Assembly: GCA_014762625.1 (NCBI GenBank)
Contig: JABURQ010000060.1
Coordinates: 1-46,227, forward strand
DNA length: 46,227 nt
Source of the DNA: Planctomycetaceae bacterium
GTDB taxonomy: Bacteria; Planctomycetota; Planctomycetia; Planctomycetales; Planctomycetaceae
Reading direction: 5' to 3'
The notes beneath the pieces are model-generated. The model had not been told where the DNA came from, searched no databases, and worked only from the letters and a program-made list of their open reading frames with translations. The position numbers were made by a program, and so were the translations under genes. This document shows positions 3,295 through 34,755 of the stretch, piece by piece (the stretch's first letter is position 1; every line of letters starts with the position of its first letter).

Positions 3295-4305
3295 TCAGCT
3301 TTGTTCGAGTTTGATTTCGGCGAGGTGCTCGACGATCTGGTCGTTCAGATTGCGGTCGTTGAGTGTCTCGGAAACCCTTAAGGCATTGGCAATCGCGCGA
3401 CTGTCACTCGATCCGTGACAGATGATACAGGTCCCATCGATCCCCAATAAAGGAGCGCCCCCTGCCGCTTGGTACTGATATTTCTGAGCGAGTTGCTGCA
3501 TCGCCTGACCGGCGAGTTCTTTCTCCTGATCGAGGCTTTCCAGCAATGTATGACCGACCATTTTCATCATGAATTCGGCCATGCCTTCGGAAACTTTCAG
3601 GACGACGTTACCGACAAACCCCTCGCAGACCAGGACATCGGCTTCGCCTTGATACAATCCCCGGCCTTCCACATTGCCGACATACGCTCCGCAGAGCGGG
3701 GTCGTCTGCATCAGCGAATGGGACTCGCGGTAGAGATCGTTTCCCTTACCGTCTTCGCTGCCGATATTCATCAACCCAATTCGGGGAGAATCGACTTGCA
3801 GCATTTCACGGGCAAACAGCCCCCCCATGATGGCGTATTGCAATAAATGTTCGGGGCGAGCGGCAGGATTCGCGCCGACGTCCATCAAGATCGAACGCCC
3901 TTTGATGGTGGGGAGCGTGACGGCGATTCCCGGGCGTTTGACACCTTTCAGGAATAATCGTGTCCGCAATCCCGCCGCGACAACCGCACCGGTATTCCCA
4001 GCACTGACCACCGCATCGACGTTTTTCTCCGCCATCAATTGCCAGCAGACGGCAATTGAATTGTTCGGTTTTTTGCGCAGCGCTTCTGTCGGTTTTTCAT
4101 CCATACCGATCGCTTCGTCGGTATGAATCAGCTTGATTCGCTGTGTGAGCGCACTGTCGGCCTCTGCCAGAAGCGGCTCGACCTGCGGTTCGTTACCGAC
4201 GAGCAAAACTTCCAACTCGGGATTGTCGGCGAGAACGGCGAGCGCGCCTTCGACGTTTGGAGCGGGGGCATAATCGCCGCCCATTGCATCCAATGCAATC
4301 CGCAT
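3295..4305 (-). CDS. plsX: Phosphate acyltransferase PlsX
   Basis: A 336-residue PlsX enzyme that converts acyl-ACP to acyl phosphate, the first step feeding PlsY in bacterial phospholipid synthesis. The N-terminus MRIALDAMGGDYAP is the family signature. VSAGNTGAVVAAGL (about residues 100-113) and LMNIGSEDGKGND (about residues 193-205) are further family blocks. The ATG follows the rpmF stop by only 6 bases, and its ribosome site (GAGGA) lies inside the end of rpmF, so the two are co-transcribed and probably coupled. The rpmF-plsX order is common in bacteria. Unlike E. coli, fabH does not lie between plsX and fabD. Confidence 0.96.
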   Translation of the reverse strand: MRIALDAMGGDYAPAPNVEGALAVLADNPELEVLLVGNEPQVEPLLAEADSALTQRIKLIHTDEAIGMDEKPTEALRKKPNNSIAVCWQLMAEKNVDAVVSAGNTGAVVAAGLRTRLFLKGVKRPGIAVTLPTIKGRSILMDVGANPAARPEHLLQYAIMGGLFAREMLQVDSPRIGLMNIGSEDGKGNDLYRESHSLMQTTPLCGAYVGNVEGRGLYQGEADVLVCEGFVGNVVLKVSEGMAEFMMKMVGHTLLESLDQEKELAGQAMQQLAQKYQYQAAGGAPLLGIDGTCIICHGSSDSRAIANALRVSETLNDRNLNDQIVEHLAEIKLEQS

Positions 4306-5910: not shown

Positions 5911-7263
5911 ATGAATCGTAAATCGATCTGTTTGCTGCTTTTGCTCGCTTTGACGGTCGGCGGTACTGCGCGAGCCACCGACCAGCCGAACGTGATCGTG
6001 ATTTACACCGACGACCAGGGAACGCTCGACCTCAACTGCTACGGTTCCAAAGATCTCATCACGCCGAACCTCGACGGTCTCGCCAAACGAGGTGTCCGCT
6101 TCACGCAATTCTACGCTCCGTCGGCCATCTGCTCTGCGTCACGCGCCGGCATGATCACCGGACGGTTTCCGCTACGGGTGGGCGTGCCATCGAATGTCTC
6201 CTCGAAACAGGGGAATCCCGGTCTCCCTCACGAAGAGATGACGATGGGCGATTTTTTCAAAGCGGCCGGTTATCGGACCGCCCACATCGGAAAATGGCAT
6301 CTCGGTTATACGCCCGAAACGATGCCGAACGAGCAGGGGTTCGATCACTCCTTCGGACATATGGGCGGCTGCATCGATAACTATTCCCACTTTTTCTATT
6401 GGAACGGGCCCAATCGTCACGACCTGTGGCGGAACGGTGAAGAAGTTTACGCCGACGGCCAGTTCTTCCCCGACCTGATGGTTCAGGAAACGGAAAAATT
6501 CCTGAAAGCCGAGAGCGACAAACCGTTTTTCATCTACTGGGCAATTAACACCCCGCATTATCCACTGCAGGCGACCGCCAAATGGCGGGAAAAATACAAG
6601 GATGTTCCCTATCCGCGAAATCTCTACGGTTCGTTCGTCTCGACGACCGACGAACGAATCGGGCAGGTCTTCCATCTGCTCGACGAACTCGGACTCCGGG
6701 ACGACACGATCATCGTCTATCAATCCGACCACGGCCATTCCACCGAGGAACGGACTCACTTCGGCGGCGGCAACGCGGGAATCAATCGGGGAGCGAAAGG
6801 CTGCCTCTTCGAGGGAGGACTCAAGGTCCCCGCGATTATTTCCTGGCCGGGAGAGATTCCGGAAGGGGAAGTCCGCGAGCAGATGGCAACCGGCTGCGAC
6901 TGGTTCCCGACGCTGGCGGAACTGTGCAACATCCCCGTGCCGGACGGTCATCGCTTCGACGGCAAAAGTCTCAAAAACGTGATCATGCAGAATAGCGACT
7001 CACCGCACGTCGCCTTTTACTGGCAATTGGGAGCCAACGAGAAAAATGCACAATGGGTCGTGCGTCACGGCAAATGGAAGCTGCTCGGAAATCCCCGAGA
7101 CACCGTCAGTCGTCAACCGGTCGATACCGTGGACGGCCTGTTCCTGGTCGATCTGGAAGCGGATCCCAGTGAAACGACCAATCTCGCCGAAGCGGAGCCG
7201 GAACAACTGAAACGCCTGTCGCAAATGCGCAACCGGTTTCTGCAATCGATTGCTCCGCAGTAG
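5911..7263 (+). CDS. Secreted sulfatase (formylglycine type)
   Basis: A 450-residue sulfatase with a signal peptide (residues 1-22, hydrophobic core CLLLLLALTV, cleavage near ARA). It hydrolyses sulfate esters, probably on a polysaccharide or oligosaccharide outside the cytoplasmic membrane. The active-site signature CSASRAGMITGR starts at Cys74, which would be converted to formylglycine. The metal site includes Asp34-Asp35 (TDDQG); Lys128 and His130 occur in IGKWHLG, and a SDHGHS motif supplies later metal ligands. It sits 45 bp after the dehydrogenase and 100 bp before the isomerase in a same-strand sugar block, suggesting that it desulfates the sugar those enzymes use. The stop codon is TAG. 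Confidence 0.93.
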   Translation: MNRKSICLLLLLALTVGGTARATDQPNVIVIYTDDQGTLDLNCYGSKDLITPNLDGLAKRGVRFTQFYAPSAICSASRAGMITGRFPLRVGVPSNVSSKQGNPGLPHEEMTMGDFFKAAGYRTAHIGKWHLGYTPETMPNEQGFDHSFGHMGGCIDNYSHFFYWNGPNRHDLWRNGEEVYADGQFFPDLMVQETEKFLKAESDKPFFIYWAINTPHYPLQATAKWREKYKDVPYPRNLYGSFVSTTDERIGQVFHLLDELGLRDDTIIVYQSDHGHSTEERTHFGGGNAGINRGAKGCLFEGGLKVPAIISWPGEIPEGEVREQMATGCDWFPTLAELCNIPVPDGHRFDGKSLKNVIMQNSDSPHVAFYWQLGANEKNAQWVVRHGKWKLLGNPRDTVSRQPVDTVDGLFLVDLEADPSETTNLAEAEPEQLKRLSQMRNRFLQSIAPQ

Positions 7264-15618: not shown

Positions 15619-15742
15619 ATTGGACTGAGCGGATTCCGAAAAGACAACCAGAACTGAGTTGGCATCCACCCGGTCGCCGACAAACCCCGATCACATCACG
15701 ATCTTCGACCGAGAACGTGACATTCAGCAAGACGAGGCAGTC

Positions 15743-17284
15743 ATGAACGGCAATGAACTTCTGAGAATTGTTGACGCCATTCATCGCGATAAAAGTATCG
15801 ATAAAGATACGGTTTTCGAAGGGATCGAACAGGCGATCCTGTCGGCTGCGCGAAAACACTTCGGCGAAGAGGAAGAAGTTGTTGTCGATATCGATCGCGA
15901 ATCGGGAGAACCGACCGTCACCTGTGACGGGGAAGTCCTCGACGCTGATGTGCTCGGCGATCTGCTCGGTCGCGTTTCGGCACAAACCGCCAAGCAGGTA
16001 ATGATCCAACGGATTCGCGAAGCGGAGCGAGATCAGTTATTTGATGAATACACGGAATTACAATCACAATTAATGACGGGCGCGGTCACGCGTCTCGATC
16101 ACGGTTCGGCGACCGTCAACCTTGGTAAAGTCGAAGCGATTCTTCCTCGCAGCGAACAGATTCCCGGTGAATCACATCGCGTGGGAGAACGCGTTCGCGC
16201 CATTATCCTGGAAGTTCGCAAGGTGGGGCCGCGGGTGCGAGTCGTTTTGTCTCGCAAACACCCGGATATGGTTCGCCGGTTATTCGAAATCGAAATTCCG
16301 GAAATCAGTGAGCGGATCATCGAAATCCGGTCGCTTGCTCGTGAAGCCGGTTATCGATCCAAAGTCGCCGTCAGCTGTTTCGATACCAAAGTAGACGCCG
16401 TCGGCGCGTGTGTGGGAGTTCGCGGAGCCCGGATCCGAAACATCGTCGATGAACTGGCGGGCGAGCGTATTGATATCGTCCGTTGGAACGATTCGTTGCA
16501 GGTTCTTGTTCCCAACGCTTTGCAGCCGGCGGAAGTGGAGGATGTGATCCTCTGCCCGATGCTCGGGAAAGTGATCGTTCTTGTCCGCGACGACCAGCTT
16601 TCGCTGGCGATCGGCAAGAAAGGGCAGAACGTCCGACTGGCCTCCAAGCTTGTAGGCTGGGACATTAATGTAATGACTCAGGATAAGCTGGACGATCTCC
16701 TGGACACCGCGGTCACGGCCTTCTGCCAGGTTCCGCATGTTACCGAGGATCTCGCGGAGAATCTGGTCGCTCAGGGGTTCTTCAGTTTCGACGACCTGTC
16801 CGTCATTGAACCGGATCAGCTCGAGGAAATCAGCGGTCTGAGCACCGAACAATGTGCCGAAATCGTTGATTACGCCGACGAAGAATCACTCAAAGCGGAA
16901 CAGGAAGAACTTCGCGAAGCGGAAGAACGCAAGCTGGCTCGCGAGATGGGCCGCATGGAAGCCGATACCGGAGAAGAAGAAGCCAAATCTGAGACCAAGG
17001 AATCTCCGGCTCCAACGGACGAAACGGATTCAGAAGAAGCAGCTTCCGGCGCAAAGGAATCGGAAGAGACCACCGAAGCAACAGACGAGTCCGCTGAGGC
17101 GGAATCCTCTGAAGCCGATGGAGCAGAGGAAGCCGCTGAAGCCAGCGAAACTGAAGAAGCCGCCGAAAAAACAGACGCAGAAGAATCCGCGTCCAGCGAG
17201 CCGGACTCAGAACCGGAGCCGGTTGCGGAAGTGACGACAGACGAAACAGGAGCCGACGAAGAGAAACCAGCCGCCCAAGAATAA
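15743..17284 (+). CDS. nusA: Transcription termination/antitermination protein NusA
   Basis: A 513-residue NusA that binds RNA polymerase and nascent RNA to control pausing, termination and antitermination. Domains in order: N-terminal RNA polymerase-binding domain (about 1-110, [19 protein letters not shown]), S1 domain (about 112-180, [19 protein letters not shown]), KH1 with GVRGARI, KH2 with [18 protein letters not shown], a helix-hairpin-helix segment (about 325-385), and an acidic, Glu/Ala/Ser-rich low-complexity tail from about 390 to the end. The ATG at 15743 gives the canonical N-terminus; a TTG extension to 15659 is rejected. It heads the nusA-infB-rbfA unit behind a promoter and an attenuator-like leader. 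Confidence 0.96.
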
Positions 17285-17329: not shown

Positions 17330-17346
17330 AGGAGAGGAATCTTTTG
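17330..17346 (+). promoter_or_regulatory. Strong ribosome binding site fixing a TTG start for infB
   Basis: AGGAGAGG at 17330-17337 lies 6 bases before the TTG at 17344. No ATG gives the conserved IF-2 N-terminus (KVRVFALAKELGL), so this site decides an unusual TTG start. Confidence 0.85.
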
Positions 17347-18219
17347 AAAGTCAGAGTATTTGCACTAGCCAAAGAACTGGGACTCGACAGCAAGGACTTG
17401 ATCCAACACTGTAATGACCTGGGAATTCAGGTCAAAAGTTCAGCCTTGGCCAGCATCACCCCCGAAGAACGTGACAAGGTCGTCGCCTATGTGGAGAACC
17501 AACAGGCGTCGGGGGGTGGAGAATCCGCGCAACCCGAGGCGGAAATCGCCCCGGTTCGAGACGAATCGGCCTCCGAAAAGAAAGTGGGGAAGGTTCGAAA
17601 GCTGAAACCTCGCACCGCCAAAGCGCGGGGTGCTTCCAAGCCGGTCACTGAAGAGACGGGCGAAATTGCCACCGCCACCGAAGAGCCGGAAGAAGAAACG
17701 CCCGGCGATGAAGTCGCCGCGGAAGCGGAGAAGCCGGAAGATTCCGACTCGAATGACGATTCTGGTGAGGATCAACAGCAAACAGAAACCAAAGAAAAAG
17801 AAGAAGACGACAAATCAGAGAAGAAGAAAAGTGATTCCCCGATCAAGCCGATATCGCGTGATGATTACAAACCACGCGGCAGCGCGATGTCTCGCATGCG
17901 GGAGATGAAGCCGATCGGTAGCGGAGTCACCGACCGGGATGAGGAAGAAGAAAAACCGAAGCCGAAACCCAAGCCGAAGCCGAAACCCCAGCAGCCGACC
18001 GTCGCGGCGGCACCGGACCTGAAACTTCCGAAACAGAAAAAGAAAAAAGAGGAAGGGGCTCCCAAACCGGAAATTCGTCTGAACTCCGATATGCTGGAGC
18101 AACAAGCGTCCCCGCTGGGCGAGCAAATCCGGAAAAACGCGGAACGCAAGCTCTCCAAAGGCGACAAAGGACGGGATGAAGAGGAAAGCGGCGGTCGGCG
18201 AGGTCGGAGCCTGATGTAG
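17344..18219 (+). CDS. infB: Translation initiation factor IF-2, N-terminal part (ends at in-frame TAG)
   Basis: The first 291 residues of IF-2. It begins at a TTG with a strong ribosome site and opens with the IF2_N subdomain (MKVRVFALAKELGLDSKDLI, residues 1-52). A long charged linker follows, rich in Glu, Lys and Pro, including a run of KPKP repeats at about 206-216. The frame is stopped by TAG at 18217-18219; the next codons in the same frame continue a typical Arg/Lys-rich IF-2 linker and then the rest of the protein, so this is one gene with a nonsense codon, not two unrelated genes. On its own this part lacks the GTPase and cannot act as IF-2. It follows nusA by about 60 bp. Confidence 0.9.
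   Translation: MKVRVFALAKELGLDSKDLIQHCNDLGIQVKSSALASITPEERDKVVAYVENQQASGGGESAQPEAEIAPVRDESASEKKVGKVRKLKPRTAKARGASKPVTEETGEIATATEEPEEETPGDEVAAEAEKPEDSDSNDDSGEDQQQTETKEKEEDDKSEKKKSDSPIKPISRDDYKPRGSAMSRMREMKPIGSGVTDRDEEEEKPKPKPKPKPKPQQPTVAAAPDLKLPKQKKKKEEGAPKPEIRLNSDMLEQQASPLGEQIRKNAERKLSKGDKGRDEEESGGRRGRSLM
18217..18219 (+). other. infB: In-frame amber codon interrupting infB (codon 292)
   Basis: The frame reads Ser-Leu-Met-TAG-Glu-Arg-Arg-Arg-Arg-Asn-Lys. Both flanks are in the same reading frame, with no insertion or deletion needed. A single C-to-T change (CAG to TAG) would explain it, as would a base-call or assembly error. TAG also terminates the 3' end of infB and several other genes here, so general recoding of TAG is unlikely. 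Confidence 0.95.
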
Positions 18220-20145
18220 GAACGCCGACGCAATAAGAAGAAACTGGCGGAGAAGGAAGATGACGGCGGTCGGCAGCGATCGCGTCCGATGCGTCGTTCT
18301 CGACGACGCGGAAAATCCCAGCCGGTACAATTGAAAACCGAAGCCACGATCGAAATGCCGATCACGCTCCGCGGGCTCTCCGAAGCCCTCGGACGTCCCG
18401 CTCGTGATTTGATGCGAACACTGATGCAGGATGGCGAGATGGTCACGATCAACGAAATGGTCGATGAAGAGACCGCGTTGATGCTCGCTATGGAACACGG
18501 CGTCGATCTGACGATCAAAGAACAGAAAGATGTCGAAGAGGAACTCGAAGAGCTCTTTAACAAAGAGTATCCCGAGGAAGAGTTACGGGAACGGCCTCCG
18601 ATTGTGACCGTTCTGGGGCACGTCGACCACGGGAAAACCACGTTGGTCGATAAGATTCGCTCCGCGAACGTCGCGGCTGGTGAAGCGGGCGGGATCACCC
18701 AACACATTTCGTCCTATCAGGTCGATTACAACGACAAAAAGGTGACCTTCGTCGATACCCCCGGTCACGCCGCGTTTGGAGAAATGCGTGCCCGCGGTGC
18801 GAATGTGACCGATATCATCGTCCTCGTGGTGGCGGCTGATGACGGCGTCATGCCACAGACAGTCGAATGCATCAGCCACGCACGAAACGCCGACGTCCCG
18901 ATTATCGTTGCCATGAACAAAATGGACTTGCCGGACGTCAACGAACAAAAAGTGCTGCAGGAACTGGCTCAGCATGAGATCATCCCTTCCGAGTGGGGAG
19001 GCGACATCGAAGTCGTCCGTACATCTGGAGAGACCGGCGAGGGAGTTGACGACCTGCTGGAAACGATTCTGCTGACAGCGGATCTTCACGAATACAAAGG
19101 CAATTACGATCGTGACGCGATCGGCGTCTGTTTGGAGGCTTTCCGAGATGAAGGTCGCGGACCGGTCGCTTGGATGGTGGTCAAGGACGGAACGTTGCGG
19201 ATCGGCGATAACGTGCTGTGCGGGGGGGCGTTCGGTCGCATCCGCGCCATCTACAACGATAAAGGGGAAGAAATCCAGGAAGCGCCTCCGTCGTTACCGG
19301 TGAAAGTTTCAGGACTCGACTCCGTTCCCGGAGCTGGCGATAAATTCTTCGTTGTGGAAGACATTGAGAGAGCGCGAGAAATCGCTGACGAAAGACAACA
19401 CCACGATCGCACCAAGGTACTTTCTCGAATCAAAGTTCCCGCCGGACTGGAAGATATTCTGGGGGCGATCCGGGAAGGGAAAGTTCAGGACCTGTCGCTG
19501 ATTGTCAAAGCCGATACTCCGGGCTCGCTGGAAGCGATTCGCAGCGAGGTCATGAAGTTCGAACACCCGGAAGTCCGCGTGAACGTCATTCACGAAGGGG
19601 TCGGGGGAGTGAACGAGAGCGATATCTACCTGGCCGCGGCGGGGAATGCGATTATCATCGCGTTCCACGTGATCGCGGAAGATCGAGCAGCAGCCCTCGC
19701 CGATCAGGAAGGTGTCGAAATTCGTCGCTACCAAATCATCTACGAATTGATCCAGGACATCAAAGACGCTTTGGAAGGAATGTTATCTCCCGAACGCGTG
19801 GAAATTGCTGCTGGCCGGGCGTTGGTGCTGAAGACTTTCAGCGTCAGTCGATCCGGTACGATTGCGGGATGTCGGGTCCTCAACGGAAATATCGGACGCG
19901 ATTGTCACGTTCACGTGATTCGCGATCAAACCATTATCAACGACTACCCAATCGCTTCACTGCGGCGTGAAAAAGACGATGTCAAAGAAGTCCGAGAGGG
20001 AATGGAATGCGGTATTCGCCTCGACGGATTTAATGATGTGAAAGAAGGGGACCTTCTGGAAGCCTTCCGCATCGAAGAGAAGAAACGGAGTCTCGACGAT
20101 GTTCCGGCCAAATCGGAATCGGACGAGACCCCGGACGAAGAATAG
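18220..20145 (+). CDS. infB: Translation initiation factor IF-2, GTPase and C-terminal part
   Basis: The remainder of IF-2 in the same frame; counted from the TTG it spans codons 293-933. Visible parts are a second IF2_N-like subdomain ([20 protein letters not shown], about codons 337-395), then the G domain with GHVDHGKTT (425-433), DTPGH (from 471) and NKMD (525-528), and the beta-barrel and C-terminal domains ending in [16 protein letters not shown]. All parts needed for GTP binding, ribosome joining and fMet-tRNA binding are present. If it is made separately, the first in-frame ATG is at 18289, with ATG at 18355 and 18412 as others; none has a clear ribosome site. Shorter IF-2 isoforms from internal starts are known in E. 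coli. The 3' stop is TAG; rbfA follows after about 90 bp. Confidence 0.9.
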
Positions 20146-20235: not shown

Positions 20236-20655
20236 ATGACATCACGCAGAACACTTAAAGTTGCCGAAGCCCTTCGGGAAACCATCGCGACACAGATTCT
20301 GTTCGGGCTCAAAGACCCACGGGTCAAAAATGTGACCGTTCTCGGGGTCAAGGTGAGCGGCGATTTGCGAAACGCCAAAGTCTACGTCTCCGTCATGGGT
20401 GACGAAAAAACACAATCACTGACGATGCACGGTTTGAATTCAGCGAGGGGATTTCTGCAGTCCAAGATCGCGGATGAACTCAATCTTCGATATACCCCGA
20501 TACTGGAATTCGTCCTCGATGACGGCGTTAAGAAAAGTATTCGAGCCTCCGAGCTTCTTCGCGGTGTGATTCCCGAAAGCGATCAATCTGCAGAAGAATC
20601 CGTGGCGTCGGATGAAGAGACGACCGCCGCTCCTGAAGATTCTCCCGTCGAGTGA
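20236..20655 (+). CDS. rbfA: Ribosome-binding factor A
   Basis: A 139-residue KH-fold protein that binds the 30S subunit during late maturation of 16S rRNA. Family blocks are [19 protein letters not shown] at the N-terminus, [27 protein letters not shown] (about residues 27-53) and [20 protein letters not shown]. After about residue 115 there is an acidic tail rich in Glu, Ser and Ala that is not part of the core fold. It follows infB in the order usual for bacteria; truB and rpsO, often next, are not here. Confidence 0.95.
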
Positions 20656-26013: not shown

Positions 26014-26125
26014 AGTCTTTGCGTGATTTCCGGGATATCGTCTCGATCTTTACCCCTGGACGAGGATTTCGTACTCTACACGCTGCGATTTGAAACCAAC
26101 GCTGCTGAAAGGATGCAGGACCGCG

Positions 26126-27163
26126 ATGGTCAGGGAACCGGTCTTTCAATCAGATGACGACAACGACGGAGGTCCTCCGTTCGATGTCCCTACATCAGCC
26201 GGTTTTCCCCCTGATGACGCGCGCCACGATGAGGAACTCCGTCCTCAGCGTCTCGATGATGTCGTCGGACAGCGAAGAGTCGTCGAACGACTGCGGATCA
26301 TCCTCGACGCCACCATCAAGCGCGATGAACCGCTGTCACATCTGCTGCTCGATGGGCCTCCCGGACTCGGCAAGACGACACTCGCTACTGTCCTGCCGAA
26401 AGAACTCGGTGTCGAGTTGCAAATCACCTCCGGCCCCTCGCTCAGCGCTCCCAAGGACTTACTCCCGTACCTGACGAATGCGTCCGAACGATCCGTCCTG
26501 TTTATCGACGAAATCCACCGCATGCCGGCGTCGGTCGAAGAATTTATCTACCCCGCGATGGAAGACTTTCGCGTTGATATCACTCTTGGCGAAGGCCTGA
26601 ACGCCCGCACGATCAACATGAAGCTCCAACCGTTCACCGTTATCGGGGCCACCACTCGTAGCGGCATGCTGACTGCTCCGCTCCGAGACCGGTTCGTCAA
26701 TCGGGAACATCTCGAGTTTTACGAGCACGAAGAGTTGATGGAAATCCTCACCCGGAATGCAGACAAGCTGAAAACAGAACTCTCGCAGGAAGCTGCCGCC
26801 GAATTGGCACGCCGCAGCCGGGGGACTCCCCGCAAAGCGAATAACCTGCTGCGGTGGGCGCGAGACTACGCGACCAGTCGCGGCGACGGAAAGATCACTG
26901 ACAAACTGGCGGAAGAGGCGCTTGAGATGCGGGGCGTCGATATCCGCGGGCTGGAAGGTCAGGACCGGAAATATTTGACGGTGCTCTCCTCTGTCTTCAC
27001 CGGCGGCCCCGCCGGACTCAATGCAATCGCCCACACGATGAACATCCCGCCTGACACACTGGAAGATGAAGTCGAACCGTACCTTCTGCAGTGCGGCTTG
27101 ATTCAGCGGACGCCGCGCGGCCGCGTGTTGACCGACGATGGCTTGAAACACATCAGTGGGTAG
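26126..27163 (+). CDS. ruvB: Holliday junction branch migration ATPase RuvB
   Basis: A 345-residue AAA+ motor that drives branch migration with RuvA at Holliday junctions. Walker [10 protein letters not shown] at 77-85, Walker B DEIH at 128-131, sensor region [17 protein letters not shown] containing the arginine finger, and the C-terminal winged-helix domain ([24 protein letters not shown]). The N-terminal 35 residues are an acidic extension ([12 protein letters not shown]) before the canonical [13 protein letters not shown]. The ATG at 26126 has AGGA six bases upstream; a TTG extension to 26090 is less likely. ruvA and ruvC are not adjacent. The stop is TAG. Confidence 0.96.
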
Positions 27164-33291: not shown

Positions 33292-34755
33292 ATGTTTGAA
33301 TCGATACTCGCGGAGCGAACAAGCGCTATGAAGCACCTCACCCACATGATCTTTTTCGGACTGCTGACCGTACTCCCCACGATTTCAGGCGCGGAACCAC
33401 CGCGTCCCAATATCGTCCTCGTGATGGCCGACGATCAGGGCTGGGGACAGGTCGGCTATTACAATCACCCGACGCTCAAAACGCCCAATCTGGATGCGAT
33501 GGCGAAAGCGGGATTGCGTTTCGATCGATTTTACGCGGCGGGACCAGTTTGTTCCCCGACGAGAGCCTCCGTGCTGACGGGACGCACTCATGTTCGCACG
33601 GGCGTCCCCAGTCACGGCCATAACCTCTGTCTACAGGAAAAGACACTTCCTTCCGCACTCAATAATGCAGGGTACGCGACCGGGCATTTCGGCAAATGGC
33701 ATCTGAACGGCATCCGCGGTCCCGGAGTGCCGATTCTTGGAGACGACGCGAACCATCCCGGAATGTACGGGTTTGATGAATGGCTGTCGGTCACCAACTT
33801 CTTCGACCGCAATCCGATTTTGAGTCGCAACGGCAGGTTCGAAGAGTTTGAAGGGGACTCATCGGTCATCATCGTTGAGGAGGCGTTGAAATTCATTTCC
33901 CGGCAACAAGTCGCCGGCGAACCTTCTTTCACGGTAATCTGGTACGGCTCACCTCACAATCCGATGCGGGCCGTCGAAGAAGACCTCGACGGTTTCGACG
34001 ACAATGGACTCGGCAATCACCTGGGAGAGATCAGAGGGATCGATCGCAGCGTCGGGAAATTGCGTGCCGGCCTCCGTGACTTGGGAATCGAAAAGGAAAC
34101 TCTCGTCTGGTATTGCAGCGATAACGGCGGCTTGACCGTCGATCCCGATGCCTGCGGACATCTCAGAGGCCATAAAGGCCAGGTCTACGAAGGCGGAATT
34201 CGCGTGCCGGGAATTATCGAATGGCCGGGGACGATTGAGCCGGGTATCACGATCTTCCCTGCTTCCACAATGGATATCATGCCCACGCTGATTGAACTTC
34301 TCGAGTTGCCGGAAGACTCGCAACTGGCGGTCCGGGATGGGGAAAGTATCCTGCCGCTGCTGCGCGGTGAGAAACCGACTCGAACGCACCCGATTCCATT
34401 TTTATTCGGCAACAGTGCGGCGCTGATCGACGGAAAATACAAGATACTGAGTACCAATATCAATCAAGCGAACGAGTGGAAGCTGTTCAATCTGGAGCAG
34501 GATCCCGGCGAAACGAACGATCTCTCCGAGAAGTCTCCGGAGAAATTTGAAACACTGAAAGCTCAAGCCGCCTCAACCATTCAATCGATTGAAGTGAGCG
34601 CCGCCGGAAAAGACTATCCGGAAGGTGAAGTGCTTCAACCGGCCCGACGTGATTTCTGGTATCACATGCAGGCCTACCAACCCCATTTTGAGCGATTCTT
34701 CCAGCGTCCCGAATACGCTGGGTCGGAGAAGAAAGTCCCTCCATCACTCCGCTAG
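33292..34755 (+). CDS. Secreted sulfatase (formylglycine type), second copy
   Basis: A 487-residue sulfatase. The signature CSPTRASVLTGR starts at Cys87, the formylglycine precursor; Asp47-Asp48 (ADDQG) bind the metal; FGKWHLNG and CSDNGG supply further catalytic residues. A hydrophobic segment at about 19-33 and ISGA form the signal peptide. The start at 33292 has AAGGA upstream; starting at the internal ATG 33328 (MKHLTHMIFFGLL) gives a more usual signal peptide, so either is possible. It differs considerably from the sulfatase at 5911, so the substrate is likely different. No sugar-metabolism gene is adjacent. The stop is TAG. Confidence 0.92.
   Translation: MFESILAERTSAMKHLTHMIFFGLLTVLPTISGAEPPRPNIVLVMADDQGWGQVGYYNHPTLKTPNLDAMAKAGLRFDRFYAAGPVCSPTRASVLTGRTHVRTGVPSHGHNLCLQEKTLPSALNNAGYATGHFGKWHLNGIRGPGVPILGDDANHPGMYGFDEWLSVTNFFDRNPILSRNGRFEEFEGDSSVIIVEEALKFISRQQVAGEPSFTVIWYGSPHNPMRAVEEDLDGFDDNGLGNHLGEIRGIDRSVGKLRAGLRDLGIEKETLVWYCSDNGGLTVDPDACGHLRGHKGQVYEGGIRVPGIIEWPGTIEPGITIFPASTMDIMPTLIELLELPEDSQLAVRDGESILPLLRGEKPTRTHPIPFLFGNSAALIDGKYKILSTNINQANEWKLFNLEQDPGETNDLSEKSPEKFETLKAQAASTIQSIEVSAAGKDYPEGEVLQPARRDFWYHMQAYQPHFERFFQRPEYAGSEKKVPPSLR

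Follow-up and report, generated by a model that had tools for sequence, protein, structure and literature searches.

Can a bacterium live with a stop codon inside infB, which encodes translation initiation factor IF2? The product of this gene is essential in E. coli, and in a draft assembly of a Planctomycetaceae bacterium the infB frame (17344-20145 on the + strand, 934 codons) carries one internal stop, a TAG at codon 292, ahead of its terminal TAG (Table 1). We refer to the whole stretch of DNA that was analysed, 46,227 nucleotides of contig JABURQ010000060.1, as the window. An earlier note on this DNA, made from its letters, had read IF-2 in one frame with TAG as codon 292, and the translation agrees. 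The same note had placed the stop in the charged linker before the GTPase; this is borne out by the Pfam domain positions, which put the TAG between the N1 and N2 domains, as expected for an internally initiated short IF2. The reading that we favour, with a probability of roughly 0.58, is that the TAG is a wrong or unrepresentative single base of the draft assembly, either an error or an unfixed variant. This figure and the standing given in words to the three other readings are judgements and not computed values.

Table 1. Features of the interrupted infB locus and its neighbours (positions in the window)
Feature	Position	Strand	Basis
nusA, upstream neighbour of infB	15659..17284	+	TIGR01953 333 bits, cut-off 253; NusA_N, KH and S1 domains
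infB part 1: N1 (IF2_N) and charged linker, 291 codons from TTG	17344..18216	+	Pfam IF2_N residues 2-48; anti-SD pairing -8.3 kcal/mol before the start
In-frame TAG, codon 292	18217..18219	+	Translation; aligned position is glutamate in both same-genus genomes
infB part 2: remaining linker, N2 (IF2_N), GTPase, C-terminal domains, terminal TAG	18220..20145	+	TIGR00487; Pfam
First in-frame ATG after the TAG, candidate internal start	18289..18291	+	ATG kept in both same-genus genomes; anti-SD pairing -2.0 kcal/mol, weak
rbfA, downstream neighbour of infB	20236..20655	+	Pfam RBFA 101 bits

The part of infB that follows the stop passes the IF2 equivalog model TIGR00487 by itself (731.2 bits against a cut-off of 424.4), and its Pfam domains are IF2_N, GTP_EFTU, EF-G_D2 and IF-2. 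The equivalog score, the order of the domains and the neighbours nusA and rbfA are all those of an IF2 gene, and the frame is interrupted; judged by sequence, the two halves are two parts of one IF2. The source genome is a draft of 6.23 Mb in 208 contigs (completeness 99.99, contamination 0.34), and no second infB was found in it. The remaining six matches score at most 65 bits, on which ground we rejected an intact second copy elsewhere in the genome. The TAG is flanked, within 18174-18274, by an imperfect 26-base direct repeat (73% identity, 75-base spacing).

Of the genomes examined, this draft is the only one in which we saw the stop. The earlier note had proposed aligning infB from close relatives, and in this alignment neither same-genus genome has a stop at the site; both have glutamate there. 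In one of them (G001) the infB frame is intact over 910 codons, and in the other (G002) infB lies on two contigs (G002:C34 and C111), the upstream piece of which reads through the aligned position. A split infB common to the genus was rejected on this account, the short G002 frame being a contig start. The ends of the two G002 contigs have 10 bases in common, some 50 bases downstream of the position aligned with the TAG, and that assembly breaks near the same linker. Across the 30 infB loci examined, the stop is present in the window's own, G002 is cut by its contigs, and all of the others with upstream sequence (28/28) are open, by which we mean that the frame continues without a stop for 885 bases or more upstream of the match; no TAG was found at the aligned site in the same-genus genomes or in these 28 loci.

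A scan of the whole class gave an infB match in 286 of 297 genomes (E <= 1e-90). Among the 150 matches listed for these 286 genomes, the frame is open for 814 codons or more in 147 and short in three: the window's own (641), that of G002 at its contig end (627), and that of G265 (640), a contig-end case in which the match begins at base 94 of the contig. The window's infB is the only short one among the 150 listed matches that lies away from a contig end. The 11 class genomes with no infB match at this threshold, G007 and G010 among them, include some with completeness of at least 95, and perhaps reflect assembly gaps. The site itself falls in a short block conserved within the genus, with methionine-stop in the window against isoleucine-glutamate in both relatives. 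The linker around it is poorly conserved and its residues vary deeper in the family; the position thus offers no hint of a programmed stop. Among the titles and opening lines of abstracts listed from a literature search on premature stop codons and infB, we found no natural stop in this gene.

Were the stop an established feature of this lineage, the N1 domain might be expected to bear its marks, and comparison with G001 points the other way. Over the first 50 codons dN is 0.067 and dS 0.82, and over N2, which follows the stop, dN is 0.070 and dS 0.84; most longer stretches are at or near synonymous saturation against the window and are little informative. By these values N1 is no less constrained than N2. 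With intact IF2 on both sides of the stop there is then no sign of decay, and if the stop is real it must be young, barring continued use of N1 as a piece of its own. The impression that both halves are fully conserved, recorded in the earlier note, holds for the domains; the linker before the TAG is strongly divergent even within the genus.

We next consider whether translation could restart after the stop. Ribosome sites were scored by their pairing energy with an assumed anti-SD sequence, not one read from this genome, and by this measure the ATG codons at 18289, 18355 and 18412 (-2.0, 0.1 and 0.3 kcal/mol) fall far short of the infB start (-8.3 kcal/mol), in keeping with the earlier remark that no clear ribosome site precedes any of the three. 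Several presumed gene starts in the window also pair weakly with the assumed anti-SD, so the weak site at 18289 is not decisive. Synonymous change does not fall around this ATG either: compared with G001, a 20-codon stretch from 18274 shows differences at 14 of 19 codons. Of all in-frame ATGs in 18220-18619, the one with the best pairing to the assumed anti-SD is that at 18439, inside N2 (-6.5 kcal/mol). The stretch 18424-18484 combines few synonymous differences from G001 (3/15 codons) with this ribosome-site-like sequence, a signal that may be due to chance, given that about 90 such stretches were scanned.

The absence of the stop from relatives, the lack of decay, the weak nearest start and the fact that every other truncated infB in the 150 listed matches sits at a contig end together favour an error or an unfixed variant. 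What is observed is a conserved gene, found in one copy in the genome and intact but for a single internal stop, with no such stop in the relatives examined. The base could have arisen as an error of sequencing or of the consensus, or could be a minor or private variant carried by the population that was sequenced; the organism would then make full-length IF2 of the ordinary kind from a nusA-infB-rbfA cluster of the usual kind. We infer that the living population does not have this base as its norm. A base that misrepresents the organism is rare, and so is the fixation of a nonsense mutation in a gene like this one.

Two other genes with single stops were found in the 208-contig draft, and since these may be errors too they lend some support to an error in infB. 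The first is a PSCyt2/PSD1 gene (L211, G000:C48, 1277-3898) with a single in-frame TAG at 2369; its PSCyt2 domain spans the stop and it is otherwise intact. The second is a DUF1559-like paralogue (L209, G000:C205, 3177-3917) with a single in-frame TAA at 3561, adjoining an uninterrupted paralogue. Each belongs to a family with tens of copies in the source genome, whereas infB was found once, and the two interruptions may be either assembly errors or true pseudogenes of large paralogous families; the latter would count against an error in infB. So does the low overall rate of internal stops, 1 in 365 matches to five domain families: none in ABC transporter (0/66), sulfatase (0/128, from the best 150 of 202 candidates scored), protein kinase (0/37) and, as counted, DUF1559 matches (0/67), and one in PSCyt2 (1/67). 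The C205 stop is missing from the DUF1559 count because the match stops short of the TAA codon. PSCyt2 matches elsewhere hold no internal stop (0/54 in G001 and 0/62 in the one-contig genome G003), which is no real difference from 1/67.

Within the window, a tblastn comparison with frames of G001 and G002, reaching to about 29.9 kb, revealed by eye no second interrupted conserved gene, which again counts against an error. In two more good matches the stop precedes the listed start codon, and the many weaker matches in other frames that hold stops were taken as shadows of real genes. infB itself escaped a strict screen for interrupted genes by codon score, since its linker hardly looks like coding sequence to such a score. 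With looser settings, run over 892,353 bases (61 sequences), 53 pairs of adjacent frames emerged, and the 50 of these that were scanned against Pfam yielded one domain match across a stop (C48) and, in C205, two stretches of one domain; this looser screen is blind to stops between domains and would have missed infB if judged by its domains. The level of interrupted genes in the genome is low, and it does not decide the infB case.

The strongest rival is that the TAG is a real, recent nonsense mutation, which we regard as possible though clearly the lesser prospect. The cell would make a 291-residue N1-linker fragment and, by internal initiation, a short IF2 resembling IF2-beta/gamma (618 residues if started at ATG 18289), at some cost. 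Were the TAG real and fixed, this tentative reading would describe a planctomycete that has no full-length IF2 and lives on the short form, while the separate N1-linker fragment may bind NusA. One E. coli report describes three in-frame starts in infB and short IF2 forms that lack Domain I (N1 and linker) and keep N2; it also describes binding of NusA by Domain I/N1, and a viable Domain I deletion that grows 15-41% slower depending on the medium (PMC12297416). A strain with the short forms only is viable and MMS-sensitive, according to a second report (PMC3334882). The TAG lies between N1 and N2, in the stretch of the E. coli internal starts, so truncation here could be survivable; by this analogy the stop would fall at a tolerated place, where a random error need not fall. 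The ATG at 18289 is moreover kept in both same-genus genomes. We keep a real mutation open because the stop lies where truncation could be survived and because interrupted genes are few in this genome; against it stand the weak ribosome site and unreduced synonymous change at 18289 and the lack of a comparable truncation among the 150 listed matches.

Readthrough of the TAG, whether because termination is leaky or because a suppressor tRNA escaped detection, would give full-length IF2 at a reduced level and is improbable. It would account for the constraint on both sides of the stop, and the TAG in C48 offers a second single in-frame case, but the third interrupted gene has TAA. The source genome has at least 55 tRNA matches (from the best 150 of 219 candidates scored), and the search for an amber suppressor tRNA that the earlier note had suggested came back negative: ARAGORN called no CTA anticodon on 30 loci and 20 further stretches holding the 55 matches, with one 30-bit match (C14:2347-2404) receiving no call. 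Three adjacent tRNAs (L153, G000:C18 25271-25627) comprise two that score low and one with an undefined anticodon, the loop of which, by eye, looks glutamate-like and is one base short. RF1 is intact, with an open frame scoring 483.5 bits against a cut-off of 423. TAG is in ordinary terminal use, ending 46 of the 276 frames that exceed 350 codons (144 end in TGA and 86 in TAA) and 5 of the 33 checked frames in the window. The earlier note had argued against a recoded TAG from its use as the terminal stop of infB, both sulfatase genes, ruvB and a PstS-like gene. TAG does end infB, the sulfatase genes at 5911-7263 and 33292-34755, and ruvB at 26090-27163, and the PstS-like gene was not identified; the argument itself stands, and recoding was set aside on tRNA content, intact RF1 and the ordinary use of TAG. 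With no stop in the relatives read, the same evidence disfavours readthrough, so that of the options first proposed for this codon, error and tolerated nonsense both remain and readthrough recedes. Least credible of all, and very improbable, is an evolved split in which the N1-linker fragment is a separate working protein (for example in contact with NusA) and the short IF2 initiates: N1 is still constrained and nusA adjoins infB here, which would suit the NusA binding described in the E. coli report cited above (PMC12297416), but the arrangement is absent from both same-genus genomes, and there is neither a stop-start overlap nor a good ribosome site at the closest ATG in frame.

What the locus means depends on which of these readings is right. 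If the base is wrong or unrepresentative, as we think more likely, the lesson is only that an unshared stop in a draft genome, even in an important gene, has to be backed by reads before anything is made of it. A real and fixed TAG would provide nature's parallel to the deletion of Domain I in E. coli, and a test outside the laboratory of what N1 is worth in NusA binding and the coupling of transcription and translation.

Two known situations resemble this one. The first is the single nonsense change in a draft genome, which shares with infB a single stop breaking a frame that is whole elsewhere, as in C48 (TAG) and C205 (TAA); the difference is that those genes belong to multi-copy families and infB was found once. 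The second is the E. coli set IF2-alpha, IF2-beta and IF2-gamma (IF2-1, IF2-2 and IF2-3). The likeness is the break between N1 and N2, and part 2 of the planctomycete gene would resemble the short forms. E. coli makes these from in-frame internal starts, whereas here no good start was found at the nearest in-frame ATG (18289); and E. coli also makes the long form from an uninterrupted gene, which the stop, if real, would forbid.
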